52,047 nucleotides of DNA from Clostridium thermobutyricum. GTDB lineage: Bacteria; Bacillota; Clostridia; Ch29. Location of the stretch: positions 1 to 52,047 of the forward strand of contig JAENYD010000015.1 of the NCBI GenBank assembly GCA_016842005.1. The letters are read 5' to 3'. The notes below the pieces were generated by a model. It was not told the origin of the DNA, searched no databases, and saw only the letters and a list, made by a program, of their open reading frames with translations. Below, one piece after another: positions 2,627 through 51,933 of the stretch. Position 1 is the first letter of the stretch; each line of letters starts with the position of its first letter. The translations under genes were made by a program, and so were the position numbers.

Positions 2627-2999
2627 GGAAAGCGTCTTAAGGGATATGCTGATACGCCATACGGAACATATACATTTTCGGGAACAACGGAAGAAAGAGA
2701 TAAAGACCCTGATGATGGATACCCTTTCCTCTAGAAATAAAAGCCTGGCGGAACGCCTGGCCGACAGGGTCATGGACTTCTGGCATTCCACCTATGAGAT
2801 ATCGGTTGTCCCCATAGTTGCAGCCATCTGTCTGGTGCTGCTCACGGCTACATCTTCAATATACTATTATCCCGGTATGACAGCAGGTCAGCAAAACAAA
2901 AAATGCATGTATATACAAACAGCCATACAGTCCCCGGACTGCTACAGCATTGTATTCATACCAATAGACGGTGAGGTGTCAAAGGATGAAGACAATTAG
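2616..2999 (+). CDS. Small membrane protein, candidate anti-sigma partner
   Basis: 127 residues: a charged cytoplasmic N-terminus of ~60 residues, one hydrophobic helix near residues 64-84 (VVPIVAAICLVLLTATSSIYY) and a short outer tail. The first 60 residues contain no His/Cys zinc anti-sigma motif, so it is not a standard ZAS protein. Its position directly after and overlapping an ECF sigma gene suggests an anti-sigma factor. That is inference from context; the family is not recognised. Confidence 0.55.
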   Translation: MKDRESVLRDMLIRHTEHIHFREQRKKEIKTLMMDTLSSRNKSLAERLADRVMDFWHSTYEISVVPIVAAICLVLLTATSSIYYYPGMTAGQQNKKCMYIQTAIQSPDCYSIVFIPIDGEVSKDEDN

Positions 3000-5277
3000 A
3001 CTGAAAGGCAGGCTGATAATACTGGCATTACTGGCTGTATTCCTGATAACTGCTGTTATATATGCAGCGGTACCCGAAATACTCATGAGACAGGCGCATA
3101 ATTACAGCGGGCCGGGAAAATCTGCACAGGCCCGCAAAATATATGAGAGAATAGCCAATTGGTTCCCTCTCTCTTCCAAGGCCCCGATGGCTCTGTATCT
3201 TTCGGCGGGATATGATGCCCCGGCCTATTATATAGGCCATAGAAGCTCAGGTCTTGTATATATATTCCCTGATTTCACCTCCTGGAGCTTTGACGGGGTA
3301 AAAAATAACCCCGAAGCAGCAGTGGAAAAATATAACCGGCTTATAGAGAACTATCCGGAATCCCCCTGGGCAGGGCATGCACTGAAAAAACTGGCTGCCA
3401 TCCATTATCATATGAGGGAATATGAGGAGGCTGAAAGATATATAAAAGAATATATGGAAAAGACTTCTTTTGCAAGTGAAGGATACAGGATGCTGGCAGA
3501 AATATACAGGGAACAGGGGATGCTGCAAGAGGCGCTGGAAGCTGTGGAAACTTCCCTGCACAAACACCCCGGAGGCCTTGAACTGGAAATGACCCATTTG
3601 AAGGCAGAGATACTGATGGAACAGGGTATGTATGATGAGGCTGCCGATACGGCACGGATGCTTCCGGATATGGCTGCGAAGATATATACCGGCCTTAAGG
3701 AACGCAGTGATGAAGACACATATCTGATGAATAGGAATGAATGGGAAGAGCGGGCCCGGAGACTTATTGCAATAATAGAGAAAAAGAAGGAAAACCCTGA
3801 CTTCGCCGGTCGCATCACAGGAAGGGTGCTGAAGGGCGGAAAACCTTTAGCCAATGTATATGTATTTCTCCAGGATAAGGCCATGAGTAGCAATGATGTA
3901 AGCCCCCCCAACTACGAATTTAAGACAATGACAGACGGGACCGGGCAGTTCGTATTTGAAGGACTGCCTCCAGGGGAATATCGTATAGGCCTGGGTGTTC
4001 CATATGATGCCCTTGAAGGATACAGCCTGAGGAAGACCGAGAAGATGTCCTCCCTGAACCTGTCAGCCCAAAATAATGAGGATACCATCCAGCTCAATTT
4101 CATGGAAAATATCAAACTCATATCCCCTGTAGGTGGTAAGGAAGTCAGCTTGGACGGTATCCGGTTCCAATGGAAAGAAGTTGAAGGCGCTTACAGGTAC
4201 TCCCTTTCTATTGGAGCGGTTACAAGAGGAGAAGATGGTACAATAAAATCTGTCATGTCCTATGGTCTGATGAACCATATAGAAGAAAACAGTGCAGTTT
4301 ACAACCCCCATGTCCTTGACCTGAAAAAGCCCACGACCCTGTCGTATGATGAGGAAGGAGTATCTCCTTCAAGTATACTGGGCCCCGTTTATCAGGGAGG
4401 GGAATTTACATGGGGTGTCATTGCCTATGATGAAAATAATATGCAGATTACCAGCAGCAGTGGATATGGTTTAGCTATGCATGAGAAAGAACTCCCCATA
4501 TTCAAGATTCCGGGGGAACTTCACAGCAAGGGCGACCGTCTCCTGATTCAGAAAAAATATGAAGAGGCTGTAGCTGCGTATGAGGAGGCTGTTGAAAAAG
4601 ACCCGGCAGACATTCACAGCCTGTCCGTACTGGCCAAACTGAACCATTACGGCATGAATAAGGACATGGAAGACTACAGAAATGCGGAACATTACTACAG
4701 ACAGGTTTTGGCACTGGTCGATGCTCCTGATATGAGAGAATCCCTGGCAGATGTACTCATGAAGCAGGAGAGATTTGATGAAGCATGCAGGGAATACGAG
4801 AAACTGGTGCAGGAGGGCAGCGATCAATGGCTCCACAGTTACAGGATAGGCCAGTGCCTGTTCAGAAGCGGCCGGACCGATGAAGCTTTTGCCTGGTTTG
4901 ACAGGGCTTCAAGTCTTGAAAATGGAAAATATATGAGAAGCTATCCCGTAATACTATCTGTCCTGCTGGGCAAGACCGATAAGGCCTTGGACTATGCCCG
5001 GATGGTAGACGGCGGGACCGAGTACTATGAGAACCTTACCTCATACCGGCAGCAGGGATTCAGGGTAGATACAGATACACTGAGCCTTATTGAAAAGGGA
5101 GACCTGGAAGGCGCCCTCAAATCCCTGGCATCTGACAAGCCGCATGACCTGTTCATTAAGGGGCTTATTCTTAAAGTAACGGGAGATCAGGAACAGCTTA
5201 CCGCAATAAGAAGCAGTCTGGCAGACATGGAGGGCCCGGGACCGGCAATATTGTCAGACCTCCTTGAAAAACTGTAG
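2986..5277 (+). CDS. Membrane-anchored TPR protein with a carboxypeptidase-regulatory-like domain
   Basis: Protein of 763 residues. An N-terminal membrane helix (residues ~8-30) is followed by TPR-like helical repeats to about 270 (EAAVEKYNRLIENYPESPWA, EEAERYIKEYME). A beta-sandwich of the CarboxypepD_reg type follows at about 275-345 (ITGRVLKGGKPLANVYVF ... GLPPGEYRIGLG), then a ~130-residue beta-rich stretch, then a second TPR block to the C-terminus. It is probably extracytoplasmic. The ATG at 2986 follows GAGGTG and overlaps the preceding gene. As the last gene of an ECF operon it could be the sensor or scaffold whose state is relayed to the sigma factor; function is otherwise unknown. 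Confidence 0.75.
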   Translation: MKTIRLKGRLIILALLAVFLITAVIYAAVPEILMRQAHNYSGPGKSAQARKIYERIANWFPLSSKAPMALYLSAGYDAPAYYIGHRSSGLVYIFPDFTSWSFDGVKNNPEAAVEKYNRLIENYPESPWAGHALKKLAAIHYHMREYEEAERYIKEYMEKTSFASEGYRMLAEIYREQGMLQEALEAVETSLHKHPGGLELEMTHLKAEILMEQGMYDEAADTARMLPDMAAKIYTGLKERSDEDTYLMNRNEWEERARRLIAIIEKKKENPDFAGRITGRVLKGGKPLANVYVFLQDKAMSSNDVSPPNYEFKTMTDGTGQFVFEGLPPGEYRIGLGVPYDALEGYSLRKTEKMSSLNLSAQNNEDTIQLNFMENIKLISPVGGKEVSLDGIRFQWKEVEGAYRYSLSIGAVTRGEDGTIKSVMSYGLMNHIEENSAVYNPHVLDLKKPTTLSYDEEGVSPSSILGPVYQGGEFTWGVIAYDENNMQITSSSGYGLAMHEKELPIFKIPGELHSKGDRLLIQKKYEEAVAAYEEAVEKDPADIHSLSVLAKLNHYGMNKDMEDYRNAEHYYRQVLALVDAPDMRESLADVLMKQERFDEACREYEKLVQEGSDQWLHSYRIGQCLFRSGRTDEAFAWFDRASSLENGKYMRSYPVILSVLLGKTDKALDYARMVDGGTEYYENLTSYRQQGFRVDTDTLSLIEKGDLEGALKSLASDKPHDLFIKGLILKVTGDQEQLTAIRSSLADMEGPGPAILSDLLEKL

Positions 5278-5366: not shown

Positions 5367-6512
5367 CTAGTCCAGTCTCTTTCTGAACCTTAGGGACGCT
5401 ACCACCAGCAGAACCGTTCCCACAGAAAACAGAACAGCTACTTCCGGCCACAGATAGCCAATACCTACCCCCTTGAGTATGATACCCCTCAATATCGTCA
5501 GGAAGTAAGTAAGGGGTAGCAGATAACCTGCAGCCCTTATAACTGCCGGCATTGCCTCCCTGGGAAAAATAAATCCGGACAGCAGTACACTGGGCAGCAG
5601 GACCAATATGGTCACCTGCATTGCCTGAAGCTGGTTCTGGGCTATTGTAGAAATAAGCATCCCCATAGCCAGGGCGCATATGACAAATCCCAGGCCCAGG
5701 ACTATCAGCAGCAGTACATTCCCTGCAACAGGCACATTAAACCACCATGTCCCGATGAGTAAGGCAATCAGAAAATCCACCGAGCCTATAAGGATATAGG
5801 GTACCATTTTCCCGATTATCAATTCCCCCGACTTTATGGGGGTGACAATAAGCTGTTCCAGGGTCCCCTTTTCCTTCTCCCGGACAAGGGCAAAGGCTGT
5901 GAGCATGACAGTCACATTCTGCATTATAAGACCGATAAGACCGGGTATGGTAAACATAGTGCTCTCCAGGTTGGGGTTATACCACACCCTGGTCCTCATA
6001 TCCACTCCCCCCGAAGCCAATAACGCCGCCCCGTTTTTCCGCAGTTCCTCCTGCTGCCGCCTTACAGAATACATCCTGGAGATCAAAATCCCGCTCTGCA
6101 GGGCTGTCCTGGCCACGGTAGGATCAGTGCCATCCACTATAAGCTGCACCTGGGGACTTTTCCCCCTGACGAGCTCCCTGGAGAAACCGGACGGTATGAT
6201 AAGGGCGGTCTTTACCTTGCCTTCGTCAATCAGCCGTTCTATCTCACCGATGCCGTTCACATACTCATAGGGCTTATAATAATCCGAATAGACAAACTTG
6301 TCTATGAATTCCCTGCTCTCCGGCGTCTTATCCTGGTCCAGTACCGCCATATCGATATTATCCACTTCGGTGTTCACCGCGTATCCGAATATCAGCATGA
6401 GCATCACCGGCATTACCACCGCAATGCCAAAACTGGCCCTGTCCCTGATTACGTGAAGAAACTCTTTCCTTATTATTGTCTTAAGCCTCTGGAAGCTCAG
6501 CCTCCGGTTCAT
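5367..6512 (-). CDS. ABC-2 type exporter permease (YbhR/YbhS-like)
   Basis: 381 residues with the layout of YbhR/YbhS/YhhJ-type permeases. One helix near residues 25-45 is followed by a large extracytoplasmic domain (~50-170), then five helices (LIGLIMQNVTVMLTAFALV through the C-terminal segment). EKEKGTLEQLIVTPI is the conserved coupling region. The start overlaps the end of the ATPase gene by 4 bp. E. coli YbhGFSR has two permeases; only one is encoded here, so it probably homodimerises. Substrate is unknown, likely a hydrophobic compound or drug. Confidence 0.9.
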   Translation of the reverse strand: MNRRLSFQRLKTIIRKEFLHVIRDRASFGIAVVMPVMLMLIFGYAVNTEVDNIDMAVLDQDKTPESREFIDKFVYSDYYKPYEYVNGIGEIERLIDEGKVKTALIIPSGFSRELVRGKSPQVQLIVDGTDPTVARTALQSGILISRMYSVRRQQEELRKNGAALLASGGVDMRTRVWYNPNLESTMFTIPGLIGLIMQNVTVMLTAFALVREKEKGTLEQLIVTPIKSGELIIGKMVPYILIGSVDFLIALLIGTWWFNVPVAGNVLLLIVLGLGFVICALAMGMLISTIAQNQLQAMQVTILVLLPSVLLSGFIFPREAMPAVIRAAGYLLPLTYFLTILRGIILKGVGIGYLWPEVAVLFSVGTVLLVVASLRFRKRLD

Positions 6513-11017: not shown

Positions 11018-11179
11018 ATGGAAGTGTTTAATAATGTAACAAAAATTGTAAAGGATGACTTAACGCAAGTTATCATGCCAGGAAGCCGCATTTCTATTGC
11101 AGCTGCCTGTTTCTCAATTTATGCTTATAAGGAATTGAAGTCCCAGCTGCAAACAGTGTCAGGGGGACGGTTCTGCTGA
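11018..11179 (+). pseudogene. 5' stub of a PLD/SNF2-helicase-like gene
   Basis: A good ribosome site (GGGGGT) and ATG begin a frame reading MEVFNNVTKIVKDD ... SRISIAAACFSIYAY. This resembles, from memory, the start of large Clostridial helicases that have a phospholipase-D-like N-terminal domain. After about 46 codons the frame runs directly into the left arm of the inverted repeat at 11154-11213 and stops. The rest of the gene is absent. The 120 bp upstream (10901-11017) holds no other recognisable feature. Confidence 0.55.
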
Positions 11180-11227
11180 CAATCTTGTCAGCAGAACCGT
11201 CCCCCTGACACTGTCCCCCTGACACTG
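11154..11227. repeat. Perfect 29-bp inverted repeat (REP-like) with a tandem half-copy
   Basis: Left arm 11154-11182 and right arm 11185-11213 are exact reverse complements separated by 2 bp. The core is GGGGGACGGTTCTGCTGACA. A further direct copy of the right end, TGTCCCCCTGACACTG, follows at 11212-11227. The hairpin also lies just past the YyaL stop codon and could act as its terminator. Sequences of the GTCAGGGGGACGGTTCT type recur as dispersed palindromes in Clostridial genomes. Confidence 0.85.
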
Positions 11228-11231
11228 ATGA

Positions 11232-13286
11232 TTACAATCGCTGGTTGTTGTCAAGCAGTTCAACCAATTTATTTATATCGGTCACAGGAGGATGGCAGGC
11301 ATAATTCTCACATACGTATACAGTGGTTGTATCCTTTTCCCTCTTCTGGTCTCCGATAAAGGGTATTAATTGCCGGATCCCTGATCCGTTATTCAATACA
11401 ACGGTGGAGTAAGGCAAAAATCTTTTGTTTATTTCCCTTATCATGGCATCCGTTTCCCTTTCTCCTTTCTGGCCCGCGATTACAATCTCTCTTGTGGGTA
11501 TTTGGTTGAACAGAAGGGCCATTATGAAATGGGTATGGGAAACCGGACTGTTTTTTATGCTTCCCCCGAATACCTTGAACTGTTTTCCCACCTTCTCCTC
11601 CAGTCCCTTATTCCCTGTCATTCGGGCCAGTCTGAGCATATTCAGGGCTGCCACCGAATTGCCTGAAGGCATGGCCCCGTCATATACATCCTTGGGCCTT
11701 ATGATAAGCTGTTCACTGTCCTCCCCGTACAGGAACAGCCCTCCCGCCGGGTCTTCAAAGTATTCCAGCATATCCCGGTTCAGGTACAAGGCCCTGTCAA
11801 GGTAATCCGGTTCAAAGGTGGCCTCGTACAACTCTATCAGCCCCCATATCAGAAAGGCATAGTCATCCAGGTATGCCGGCAGTGCCGCTTCCCCGTCCCT
11901 GTACCTGGCCAGCAGCCTGCCGTCTTCTCTCATAAGGTTGTCTGCTATGAACCGGGCCGCCTTCCCGGCCGCATCAATATATTCCTGTCTGCCAAACACC
12001 CGGCCTCCACAGGAAAGGGCAGCAATCATCAGCCCGTTCCATGCCGTCAGGATTTTGTCGTCCTTGTGCGGATGCACCCTTTTTTCCCTGTGCTCAAACA
12101 GTGTCTGCCTTATGGCATCCAGTTTATTCCTCAACGCATGGTCGGTGTCTATTTCCTCCAGGTCCTGACCTATCAGATTTGGTATGTTCTTCCCTTCAAA
12201 GTTGCCCTCAGGGGTGATACTGTAATACCTGCAGAAAAGCTCTCCGTCTTCTTTCCCTGCAACCGATGCTATCTCGTCTACCGTCCATACATAGAATTTC
12301 CCTTCCTCCCCCTCGGAATCCGCATCCTCCGCCGAATAAAATCCCCCCTCAGGCGAAGTCATATCCCTCAACACATAGGTAAATATCTTCTCGGCTACCT
12401 CTTTATAGAACAGATCTCCTGTAATCTGGAAGGCCTCCACATAAACCATTGCCATCAGGGCGTTGTCGTAAAGCATCTTCTCAAAGTGGGGCACCAGCCA
12501 TTTGCGGTCTGTAGAATACCGGGAAAACCCGAAACCGATATGGTCGAAAATACCCCCCCTGTACATGTGCTCAAGGGTATTCTCCACCATCTCCAGGGCC
12601 CTTTCGTTGCCTCTCACATGGAAGTACCTGAGCAGCAGAGACAGGTTATGGGGCGTGGGAAACTTGGGAGCGATGCCGAAGCCTCCGTAGACAGAGTCAA
12701 AAAGGTTCTCCAGACTCCTGTAAGTATCATGTACTGTCTTTCTGCCTATTTCCACTCCGTCATGGGACGACTTCATATCCTGCAGGGCAGAGATTATCTT
12801 GTCACCCGACGTAATCAGATCATTCCTCCGGGAAGCCCAGGCTTCACGGATTCTGTTAAGCACATGTACCAGTCCGGGAATACCATGCCTGTTATCTTTG
12901 GGGAAATATGTTCCTGCAAAGAAAGGCTTTTTATCGGGACTCATTATTATTGTCAGAGGCCATCCTCCCTGCCCTGTCAATGCCTGACATACCGACATGT
13001 AGATACTGTCAATGTCCGGCCGTTCTTCCCTGTCCACCTTTATGGAGACAAAATATTTGTTCAGTATGTCCGCCACTTCTCGGTCTTCAAAGGACTCCCT
13101 CTCCATGACATGACACCAGTGGCAGGTTGAGTAACCTATGGACAGGAATATTGGCCTGTCCTCCTTCTTTGCCTTAACAAAAGCTTCTTCCGACCAGGGA
13201 TACCAGTCAACGGGATTATGGGCATGCTGGAGCAGATAGGGAGACTTCTCCTTTGCCAGCCTGTTTGTATATTTTACCTTGGACAT
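11232..13286 (-). CDS. yyaL: Thioredoxin-domain protein of the YyaL/DUF255 family
   Basis: 684 residues. The N-terminal ~160 residues are the thioredoxin-like DUF255 domain with the opening [20 protein letters not shown] and the redox motif Cys55-His-Trp-Cys58. The rest is an (alpha/alpha)6-type six-hairpin domain like those of glycosidases ([31 protein letters not shown]). The family is widespread (human SPATA20) but its biochemical role is not settled. I chose the ATG at 13286 because GGAG lies 9 bp upstream; two earlier in-frame starts (TTG, ATG) are too close to it. Cytoplasmic. Confidence 0.92.
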
Positions 13287-29682: not shown

Positions 29683-30044
29683 TGCGATACCTCCATCTTT
29701 AGTCTTTTTTATTCGACGACCAACCGCCGCCTGAATAAGGTTACCCTCTCTATAACAGTATATAGGGAAACCGGCAATATTTAAAGGGTTCCCGGGAAAA
29801 GGGACCCCTGAATGACGCCATACCTGTTTATCTCTTCGGTGTGCACACCAATGAATACTGGTAGAAAATTTCATAAATTCGTACCTGTACATTTTATCCA
29901 TGATAAATTGCATCATTTTGCCAAGACAAAGGGGAACTGCTGGTTATAGGTTTCACAGTCATATTTGTTTTATCTACGACAACATCACAAATCGCTAATG
30001 TGTTATGTGCCGTACACGATATAAATGATATTTATAGAAACTCA

Positions 30045-30075
30045 TTGACCCGTATTATAATACGTATTATAATAT
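30045..30075 (+). promoter_or_regulatory. hicAB promoter with tandem palindromic operators
   Basis: TTGACC (30045-30050), 17 bp, TATAAT (30068-30073). The perfect palindrome GTATTATAATAC fills 30052-30063, and a second near-copy GTATTATAATAT (30064-30075) covers the -10. This suits autorepression by the HicB ribbon-helix-helix domain. Confidence 0.75.
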
Positions 30076-30094
30076 ATACACGGAGGGAAACTAT

Positions 30095-30288
30095 ATGAAA
30101 TCTTATTCTTCTTTTGAGTTAGCTAAAATACTCAAAGCACACGGCTGGTACTTTTATAAGGCAAATGGAAGCCACCATCATTATAAGCACCCTACGAAAA
30201 TGGTAAAGTCACTATCCCTCATCCTAGAAAAGATATACCCGATAAAACAGTAAAAAGTATCCTTAAACAAGCAAACATAAAACTATAG
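30095..30288 (+). pseudogene. hicA: HicA toxin gene with a frameshift
   Basis: GGAGGG and an ATG begin a HicA sequence (FELAKILKAHGWYFYKANGSHHHYKHP, with the catalytic His region). After about codon 35 the frame is lost. The family continuation GKVTIPHPRKDIPDKTVKSI ... LKQANIKL is encoded in another frame ending at the TAG at 30288. One missing base near 30197-30206, in the AAAATGG tract, explains it; the 194-bp total length is one short of a multiple of three. Read as written, the product stops at 30253 with 52 residues and no second half. Sequencing error is the alternative. Confidence 0.8.
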
Positions 30289-30330
30289 ACAATACCCCTC
30301 CATAAATTTTCTAAAAAAGGAGCATGTACA

Positions 30331-30741
30331 ATGAAAAAAGACCACTATATCTATCCAGCCATATTTGACTATGAAACTGATGGTATTTCAATTTCATTCC
30401 CTGACTTACCAGGTTGTTTTTCTTGTGCTGATACAGATGAAGAAGCTCTCTATATGGCTAAAGAAGCATTGGGACTTCACTTATATAGCATGGAAGAAGA
30501 TAATGATATAATCCCTGAACCAACACCCGTAAATCAGCTACCACTTGACAAAAATCAAGCAGTTGTACTTGTTGAGGTAATAATGCCAATAATGCGCGAG
30601 GCTATTGAAAATTATTCAGTTAAAAAAACCCTATCTATACCTCAATGGTTAAATAAACTAGCAATAGATAATAATATTAATTTTTCACAAGTTCTTCAAA
30701 AAGCTCTGAAAGAACAACTAGGAATTAAAGAGAGACATTAA
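30331..30741 (+). CDS. hicB: HicB-family antitoxin
   Basis: 136 residues. N-terminal HicB fold (YPAIFDYETDGISISFPDLPGCFSCADTDEEALYMAKEALGLHL) and a C-terminal helical DNA-binding segment (KKTLSIPQWLNKLAIDNNINFSQVLQKALKEQL). AAAAGGAGC precedes the start. It remains intact although the toxin gene upstream is frameshifted. The cassette is distinctly more A/T-rich than the genes on either side, consistent with acquisition. Confidence 0.92.
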   Translation: MKKDHYIYPAIFDYETDGISISFPDLPGCFSCADTDEEALYMAKEALGLHLYSMEEDNDIIPEPTPVNQLPLDKNQAVVLVEVIMPIMREAIENYSVKKTLSIPQWLNKLAIDNNINFSQVLQKALKEQLGIKERH

Positions 30742-30756
30742 GGTCTCTTCTTTTTT
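30730..30756 (+). terminator. hicB terminator
   Basis: AGAGAC-attaag-GTCTCT followed by TTCTTTTTT. The hicB stop codon lies in the loop. Confidence 0.75.
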
Positions 30757-30787
30757 ACCTTAAACCCATCTCTGAATATACGCATGT

Positions 30788-31020
30788 CACATAACGGGCG
30801 GCGGGTTTGCGGCATCCCTGAACCCTGGTGCTCACACTTGGTGAAGGGATTCCCGCAAACCCGTTTGATATGCGGCATCGCAAGCGGTTAACTGCGAGCT
30901 AGGAGCCTATTGAGCAGGACACCCGACGTCCGATAATCGGACGAACGAGTGCAGCAAGCTATGCCCGCTTATCGTTACCGTATTGCCGGCGTCCCCCGGC
31001 CTTAAAGCGATGACCAAATC
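30788..31020. other. GC-rich structured element of unknown nature
   Basis: About 230 nt without a gene and strikingly GC-rich against A/T-rich surroundings. The main stem pairs CGGGTTTGCGG plus ATCCCT (30802-30819) with AGGGAT plus CCGCAAACCCG (30845-30863). Smaller hairpins follow, such as GTCCGATAATCGGAC (30929-30943) and GCCGG/CCGGC (30985-31000). It could be a non-coding RNA, the end of a mobile element, or a recombination site like an attC. I do not recognise it as a known class. Confidence 0.5.
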
Positions 31021-31108
31021 TTAGTTAGCTCTTAACTTATGTGAAAATTCTGCCAAATCCATTATACCAAAATATTTCATGTTGTACAGAGTTTTTACTC
31101 AATAATAC

Positions 31109-31237: not shown

Positions 31238-31711
31238 TCAATCTTTCATTAAATCCAGTTCCATATATCTTGTTCCTTCTATCGGGTTGTACCTGTATGC
31301 TTCTATATCATAAAAACCCAGGCTTTCATACAGTTTTATCGCCTCTTTCATAAATTCTATGGTATCCAGTCTCATATGTTTATAATTCAATTCTTTCCCT
31401 TTCTCAATAATTGCCCGGGCAAGTTTTTTCCCGATGCCAAGGCCCCTGAATTCCGGTTTCACATACAGTCTTTTCATCTCGCATATATGGTCATCCAGCG
31501 GTCTTAGTGCAACACACCCGCTTATCGTGTCATTATGCAGGGCTAAAAGCAGGCAGCCCCTCGGAGGAGAGTAATCCCCCGGCAGACTGCTCAGTTCTTT
31601 TTCAAAATTTTGAAAGGACAGGTCAAATCCCAGTGAAGCCGCATATTCTCTGAATAGGCTTTTTATATGTTCAATATTGTTATCCTTTCCTTTTACCTGC
31701 ACTATTCTCAT
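31238..31711 (-). CDS. GNAT-family N-acetyltransferase
   Basis: 157 residues with the GNAT acetyl-CoA site (RLYVKPEFRGLGIGKKLARAII: R/QxxGxG/A reads RGLGIG) and the later LYESLGFYDIEAYRYNP segment. Substrate unknown. GGAGG precedes the ATG. It is the leftmost intact gene of the block bounded by selC and its degenerate copy. Confidence 0.92.
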   Translation of the reverse strand: MRIVQVKGKDNNIEHIKSLFREYAASLGFDLSFQNFEKELSSLPGDYSPPRGCLLLALHNDTISGCVALRPLDDHICEMKRLYVKPEFRGLGIGKKLARAIIEKGKELNYKHMRLDTIEFMKEAIKLYESLGFYDIEAYRYNPIEGTRYMELDLMKD

Positions 31712-51835: not shown

Positions 51836-51933
51836 TGGCGGGAGTATGTGAGAATCGAACTCACCCCGGACGCTACCAACGCCCAGCGACTGGTTTTGAA
51901 GACCAGGAGGCACACCAGCGCCCATCTACCCCC
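51836..51933 (-). tRNA. selC: Selenocysteine tRNA (anticodon UCA)
   Basis: 98 nt with encoded CCA. The acceptor starts GGGGGTAG and ends ATACTCCC-G-CCA (one mismatch at the eighth pair). It has an extended six-base-pair D stem, anticodon stem CTGGT/ACCAG with loop CTTCAAA (anticodon TCA), a long variable arm (TCGCTGGGCGTTGGTAGCGTCCGGG) and T arm GTGAG-TTCGATT-CTCAC. It reads UGA as selenocysteine, so the genome should encode selenoproteins and SelA/SelB/SelD; none is evident in the window. Confidence 0.93.

Follow-up and report, generated by a model that had tools for sequence, protein, structure and literature searches.

The structured, GC-rich stretch at 30788-31046 and the HicAB genes next to it are, very probably, part of an integron-type cassette array that has decayed, in which HicAB was inserted at the R' box of the second attC. 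Positions are those of the window, the whole 52,047-nucleotide stretch of Clostridium thermobutyricum DNA that was analysed. Read on the minus strand, from 31046 to 29956, the order is a truncated attC (31039-30973), an ORF-less mini-cassette (30973-30795) and a reversed HicAB cassette (30795-30002). This piece is a fossil. Intact arrays with the R''-L''-L'-R' architecture occur in relatives and, judged by sequence, the system is of integron type with a non-IntI integrase, in a phylum thought almost devoid of complete integrons: the IntegronFinder 2.0 survey gives a single one in Firmicutes, that of Limnochorda pilosa, besides a few CALINs (PMC9024848). The features, by position, are:

29956-30001, minus strand: remnant of an attC of type D, the HicAB cassette's own attC; L'' half only, the L' half lost.
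30002-30009, minus strand: R'' box of the HicAB cassette (CACATAAC on the minus strand); homology of HicAB with genome G005 ends there.
30002-30795, no strand assigned: HicAB gene cassette; its genes run against the reading direction of the array.
30095-30288, plus strand: hicA toxin gene; Pfam PF07927 on residues 8-36 only, intact-looking ORF just to 30253.
30331-30741, plus strand: hicB antitoxin gene; Pfam PF15919, 9.7e-16.
30788-30795, minus strand: R' box G^TTATGTG, the recombination point where the HicAB cassette begins and where the homology of the HicAB block breaks off.
30795-30939, minus strand: attC of type A; L'' GGACGTCGGG and L' CCCGCCGCCC close the stem over internal hairpins.
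30940-30973, minus strand: spacer of the ORF-less mini-cassette with a small hairpin, part of the type A attC unit; kept in 4 of 4 site copies.
30973-31039, minus strand: remnant of an attC of type B; R'/L' half and hairpin AGTTA-GCTCT-TAACT (31023-31037), the R''/L'' half lost.
31038-31045, minus strand: CACATAAG, possibly the R''-like end of the truncated type B site; complements TTATGTG at 30788-30794.
31238-31711, minus strand: GNAT acetyltransferase gene (Pfam PF00583, 9e-20), adjoining the array remnant.
G000:C23:35282-36199 (L031), in the same genome as the window and at the end of a contig: remnant of an integrase (C-terminal part) with attI-like repeats and a first cassette that is broken.

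The GNAT gene may or may not be a cassette; a terminator-like hairpin of its own lies between it and the array remnant.

The G+C content is 0.50-0.56 over 30750-31049, against 0.27-0.39 in the neighbouring 29775-30749. Positions 30770-31050 fold with -103.9 kcal/mol (z = -3.97), a value equalled by none of 200 dinucleotide shuffles, and their minus strand also folds stably (z = -3.3). The original prediction of a structured, GC-rich element is thus borne out, as is its near-19-bp stem: the exact 11-nt arms 30802-30812 and 30853-30863 give a 13-bp and a 6-bp helix on folding, and together these are one internal hairpin, or arm, of the type A attC. The patch is not the single element then supposed, and its integron nature had gone unrecognised: it holds several sites, and its structure is a composite of two different ones. 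By blastn it is single-copy in its own genome. Second copies, which had been proposed as a check, were found as diverged copies of its parts in four of the five other family genomes; the type A attC has single diverged copies in G002, G003 and G005, with covariance-model matches of 1e-50 to 1e-56 (E-values of models R2 and R3 are rough). Searches against Rfam, one of the window and a more permissive one of the patch, returned only chance matches near the element, none reaching a gathering score in the patch, and a DNA search of plasmid and phage records had no match to it. Elsewhere in the window, a selenocysteine tRNA gene lies at 51840-51933 on the minus strand (Rfam RF01852, 67 bits).

The octamers GTTATGTG at 30002-30009 and CACATAAC at 30788-30795 had been seen to flank the HicAB cassette, and they do so not by chance: the block shared with G005:C27 (84% identity, window 29999-30796) stops at both, octamer to octamer. 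The R'' box at 30002-30009 exactly complements the start of its own cassette, TTATGTG at 30794-30788; the octamer of 30788-30795 also begins the first cassette after the remnant integrase on contig C23 of the same genome. HicA and HicB domains side by side identify a HicAB toxin-antitoxin pair. The hicA gene carries a frameshift close to 30200, where the sequence is A-rich, with the remainder of the protein in another frame, through either decay or an assembly error. HicAB is also found between attC sites in G004:C7 and G005:C27, and at other loci in three of the four family genomes holding diverged patch copies. The left flanking gene of the locus has orthologues in relatives and the right flank is not syntenic; an empty, cassette-free site in relatives, looked for via the flanking genes, was not demonstrated.

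On the left of HicAB, window 29958-30009 has ~80-85% identical stretches in G001:C33 and G004:C86, in which the complete type D site has the paired arms AGAGATTTATGATGTT and AACATCATGAATCTC. This flank had been regarded as structure-free, an idea rejected once homology revealed the truncated attC. On the right, the hairpin of the type B remnant is an exact pattern match, and its intact relatives align and covary. The type A part between them had been considered an insert inside an attC; this was given up for a mini-cassette with its own attC, because the type A ends carry matching R' and R'' boxes in G005 (L004). With a near-complete type A site, truncated type B and type D sites and no integrase nearby, the window contains a CALIN, defined by at least two attC without an integrase in the vicinity.

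The hairpin AGTTA-GCTCT-TAACT has relatives AGATA-ACTCC-TATCT and ACATA-GCTCT-TATGT, and a search for its pattern in the family found 15 places, several of them forming co-oriented series 1-2 kb apart. Aligned with their surroundings, these attC-B sites have a common 19-bp stem, 10 of whose 19 pairs are changed on both sides. In this stem 91% of the cells are paired, against 26-42% in slid versions, and none of 500 shuffles did as well. Compensatory changes, which had been named as worth looking for, are thus present in the hairpin, yet they are no argument for a transcript, because attC sites work as folded single-stranded DNA. Folded from R'' to R', the better-preserved sites show two complementary boxes, an outer and a second one, separated by an unpaired spacer, and then the inner arms; on the hairpin-bearing strand, the G001 example reads CAGATAAC-GGTACGT-GTTCCCG ... 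CGGGAAC-ATAAT-GTTATCTG. The defining properties of an attC, paired R''/R' and L''/L' boxes and a folded hairpin, are therefore present. The hairpin strand was at first taken as the top strand of the attC; this was reversed in view of the position of the recombinase and of a hydrolase cassette shared between genomes.

Covariance model R2, of the attC-B core, replaced a first one (R1) of only 9 pairs; R2 has 4 to 13 matches in each of four family genomes, counting weak matches and those on the reverse strand. R2 sites occur in 13 of the 291 genomes of the class and 29 of the 398 genomes of the phylum sample. Most of these genomes are MAGs; array ends are often unseen because MAG contigs break at repeats.

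Between consecutive sites lie one or few genes, for acetyltransferases, a nucleoside-kinase-like protein, hydrolases, a protein kinase and toxin-antitoxin pairs: cassettes at alternative copies, also proposed earlier as a check, thus do occur in relatives. Two families (G001, G260) share a hydrolase cassette (93% over 1051 bp) whose limits are the R' boxes of two successive attC; a ParDE-type cassette, present in both G003 and G005, has limits of the same kind. From such shared blocks it follows that the unit is a gene with a 3' attC, which fixes the reading direction. The start of a cassette also agrees with its own R'': at least 7 of the 8 positions agree in 24 of the 43 cassettes, and the mean is 6.49/8 compared to 5.60 (sd 0.12) for shuffled partners, with none of 5000 shuffles as high. 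This complementarity is expected cassette by cassette, because in integrons both parts once formed one circular site. Shared blocks and start/R'' match together delimit cassettes of one or more genes plus a 3' attC, exchanged at the G^TT of R'. Arrays are mostly of one orientation, as in G155, where there are six attC and all cassette genes are on one strand; toxin-antitoxin cassettes in these arrays are often reversed, as HicAB is.

Several cassettes have peculiarities of their own. In L101, the same 143-aa cassette gene is found twice in tandem (2957-3388 and 4267-4698) behind an integrase remnant, and again in G000:C23; a Clostridiales-2 RNA (RF02937) lies just upstream of the L101 integrase remnant, at 5367-5448 on the plus strand. 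In L106, a 22-nt inverted repeat with 21 matching positions encloses the first cassette (11050-12000), a Doc-like toxin-antitoxin pair; this repeat extends far past the R boxes.

G004 and G005 encode a tyrosine recombinase of ~370 aa. In G155 it is directly followed by the six attC with cassette genes between them, and in G005 it also directly precedes an array. Clusters of self-repeats were compared downstream and upstream of the recombinase, relatives of which were found by name: the counts are 6/0 in G005, 5/0 in Clostridia Go_SlDig_bin_83, 8/0 in G155, 10/0 in Clostridiaceae M1-B18, 10/0 in Cohnella sp. AR92, 7/0 in Profundicola and 9/2 in Flavobacterium celericrescens, whose sites resemble classical attC. 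Just after the recombinase stop, most Bacillota members carry two direct repeats ~40 bp apart, an attI-like arrangement; known attI sites, such as attI1, likewise contain direct repeats. The integrase gene and attI at the head of an array thus have their counterparts in the recombinase and attI-like repeats of G155, G005 and the Bacillota relatives. In the window's genome, the last ~100 residues of the recombinase remain on contig C23, followed by the repeats and then by a cassette starting GTTATGTG.

The recombinase type was found in ~18 of the 398 phylum genomes, some of these being the short IS91-type. Seven recombinase-bearing genomes contain attC-B, for 1.3 expected (p = 1e-4, uncorrected for relatedness). 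At the threshold used, 22 of the 29 attC-B genomes of the phylum sample are without the recombinase, so that CALIN-type remnants or overlooked genes have to be assumed there. Array-free members of the family exist too, as IS91-adjacent copies and in archaea, and these are without the N-terminal HARP-like domain described below. At some loci the recombinase may be no more than a bystander.

None of the six family genomes has a match to TIGR02249, the model of standard IntI, over its cut-off. The array-linked recombinase scores 208-230 bits with it (cut-off 265), and passes NF040815 ('site-specific tyrosine recombinase/integron integrase') with 222-236 for a cut-off of 220. The spacing between GKGxKDR and HxLRHSFAT is 56-60 residues in the array-linked group and its non-array relatives, and 99-101 in IntI1, the G591 IntI, a Gemmatimonadota IntI and a phage IntI. 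By this spacing the recombinase is without the ~41-residue additional domain (I2 helix), and an AlphaFold2 model (mean pLDDT 79, pTM 0.50, with unsure domain packing) has no extra helix at that position. Like the sites, the cassette boundaries and the shared cassettes, the adjacency of the recombinase and the absence of this domain are read directly from the sequences. In a quick tree, with several inner branches open, IntIs form one clade (SH-aLRT 100) and the array-linked recombinases fall outside. The probable integrase of these arrays is therefore not an IntI with the I2 helix. Standard IntI occurs in 2 of the 398 phylum genomes: G591, a Bacillota genome that may be Limnochorda (two copies, L183 and L202), and G411 (L184).

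The first ~57 residues of the recombinase form a separate small N-terminal domain (~60 residues). Searched as a profile against the PDB, its best match is 4O66, the HARP domain of SMARCAL1 (E 0.0027), and Foldseek with the domain again ranks 4O66 first, weakly (E 0.55). The Pfam HARP score stays below gathering (PF07443, 19.4 bits compared to 25), with 8 of 14 members matching at E up to 0.5; the HARP match is thus a weak one. A GRxWDxxxKxWxxP motif, of the type found in 4O66, is present in most proteins of the array lineage, and absent, one chance pattern match aside, from IS91-adjacent, archaeal, Xer and IntI proteins. Unlike in SMARCAL1, the domain is fused to a recombinase, with no SNF2 ATPase. 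HARP proteins anneal and remodel forked DNA (PMC4035279), and we infer that the HARP-like domain may replace I2. A few array-linked members do not have it (L119, L129, L141). The Flavobacterium family members L141 and L150 have 580-592 aa, with a different extra part.

Among structures, VchIntIA (IntI4, PDB 2a3v) is the best match to the recombinase in sequence (2.7e-39, PDB search) and in fold, and shares its C-terminal SPLD-type end, but ~40 residues around IntI4 180-239 are missing here. With XerA and archaeal Xer (5hxy, 4a8e; NF040815) it has in common a catalytic core without the insertion and a score above the NF040815 cut-off; it differs in adjoining cassette arrays with attI-like repeats and in the extra N-terminal domain, and host Xer proteins form a separate, distant clade. 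IS91-associated tyrosine recombinases belong to the same wider clade and share the catalytic core, but they are short (281-289 aa) and without the HARP-like domain; L116, L120, L203 and L219 are such relatives, directly beside IS91-type transposases.

The arrays themselves resemble sedentary chromosomal integrons and CALINs in attC box architecture, in units of gene(s) plus 3' attC, in co-orientation and in attI-like direct repeats, as well as in their toxin-antitoxin, acetyltransferase and ORF-less cassettes and in group II introns beside attC. They differ from them in the integrase, which is without the additional domain, outside the IntI clade and equipped with the N-terminal HARP-like domain, and in the conserved internal hairpin of attC-B with its nearly fixed loop. 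The group II introns (RF02005) stand directly behind the attC R' boxes in L027 (3139-3378, plus strand) and L025 (4387-4626, plus strand), on the array's own strand, whereas published IIC-attC introns are on the opposite one.

In the intact system, as relatives show it, the tyrosine recombinase gene is followed by the attI-like site, two direct repeats ~40 bp apart, and then by the cassette array, each cassette consisting of one or few genes and a 3' attC that folds as an imperfect hairpin with R''-L''-L'-R' boxes. The recombination is probably performed by the array-linked recombinase, most likely joining attI and attC at G^TT and so capturing and excising circular cassettes; its substrate would be the folded single-stranded attC, which the N-terminal HARP-like domain may bind, or help to form. 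Published integron definitions require the additional domain (PMC2426708; PMC9668308), and I2 has been called indispensable for capturing cassettes and the innovation from which integrons arose (PMC7790495), which counts against an I2-less recombinase as integrase.

The strongest rival keeps the integron-like system but lets the I2-less recombinase act on double-stranded sites, as Xer does. The Xer-like enzyme, devoid of the I2 helix, would fit this, the more so as I2 is held necessary to stop second-strand exchange (PMC7790495). We consider it unlikely, though still deserving of attention: the sites have kept a hairpin with compensatory changes, and their boxes are complementary within each cassette though differing between cassettes, as a folded-strand substrate predicts.

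A good deal less probable is that a standard IntI, since lost or acting in trans, moves these arrays, which would then be of the ordinary integron kind, with the I2-less recombinase a bystander. Many CALINs do exist without an integrase, the attC sites have the ordinary box architecture, and standard IntI is present in the phylum. Against this stand the family genomes, all six without a TIGR02249 match over cut-off, the absence of attC-B from both IntI-bearing genomes of the phylum sample, and arrays that begin right behind the I2-less recombinase in unrelated genomes, with attI-like repeats.

Of the three options offered by the original prediction, the recombination site that brought in the cassette was right in kind; the RNA and the mobile-element end were not upheld. 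A new class of structured RNA (riboswitch, sRNA or toxin-antitoxin RNA) would agree with covariation and a stable fold on both strands, but it is hardly credible given copies at cassette boundaries beside unrelated genes, homology that breaks at G^TT, the lack of an Rfam match and a covariation explained by folded single-stranded attC. Just as implausible is a transposon end, MITE or intron fragment, suggested by the inverted octamers around HicAB and by the group II introns beside two sites in relatives: the window has no match to group II intron domains and no transposase between the two octamers, so that the known intron or transposon end that would have spoken against the prediction did not come up, type A has one copy per genome, each cassette has its own octamer matching its own R'', unlike fixed terminal repeats, and the exact G^TT breaks disfavour it.

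Integrons are hardly known in Clostridia. Returning to arrays served by their own I2-less recombinase, we put at about even odds that they represent a second class of integrons, with an integrase that never gained I2 and handles the folded attC otherwise, possibly with a HARP-like annealing domain; this class would extend over Bacillota, Bacteroidota and perhaps Spirochaetota and Marinimicrobia. Surveys based on profiles would score such arrays as integrase-less CALINs and, if this is true, many CALINs have an adjacent integrase overlooked by IntI-built profiles. Clostridia and Flavobacteria would then carry gene-capture platforms that lie outside current surveys, and the I2-less arrays would either have survived from before I2 existed or have arisen as an independent solution, making the origin of integrons directly testable.
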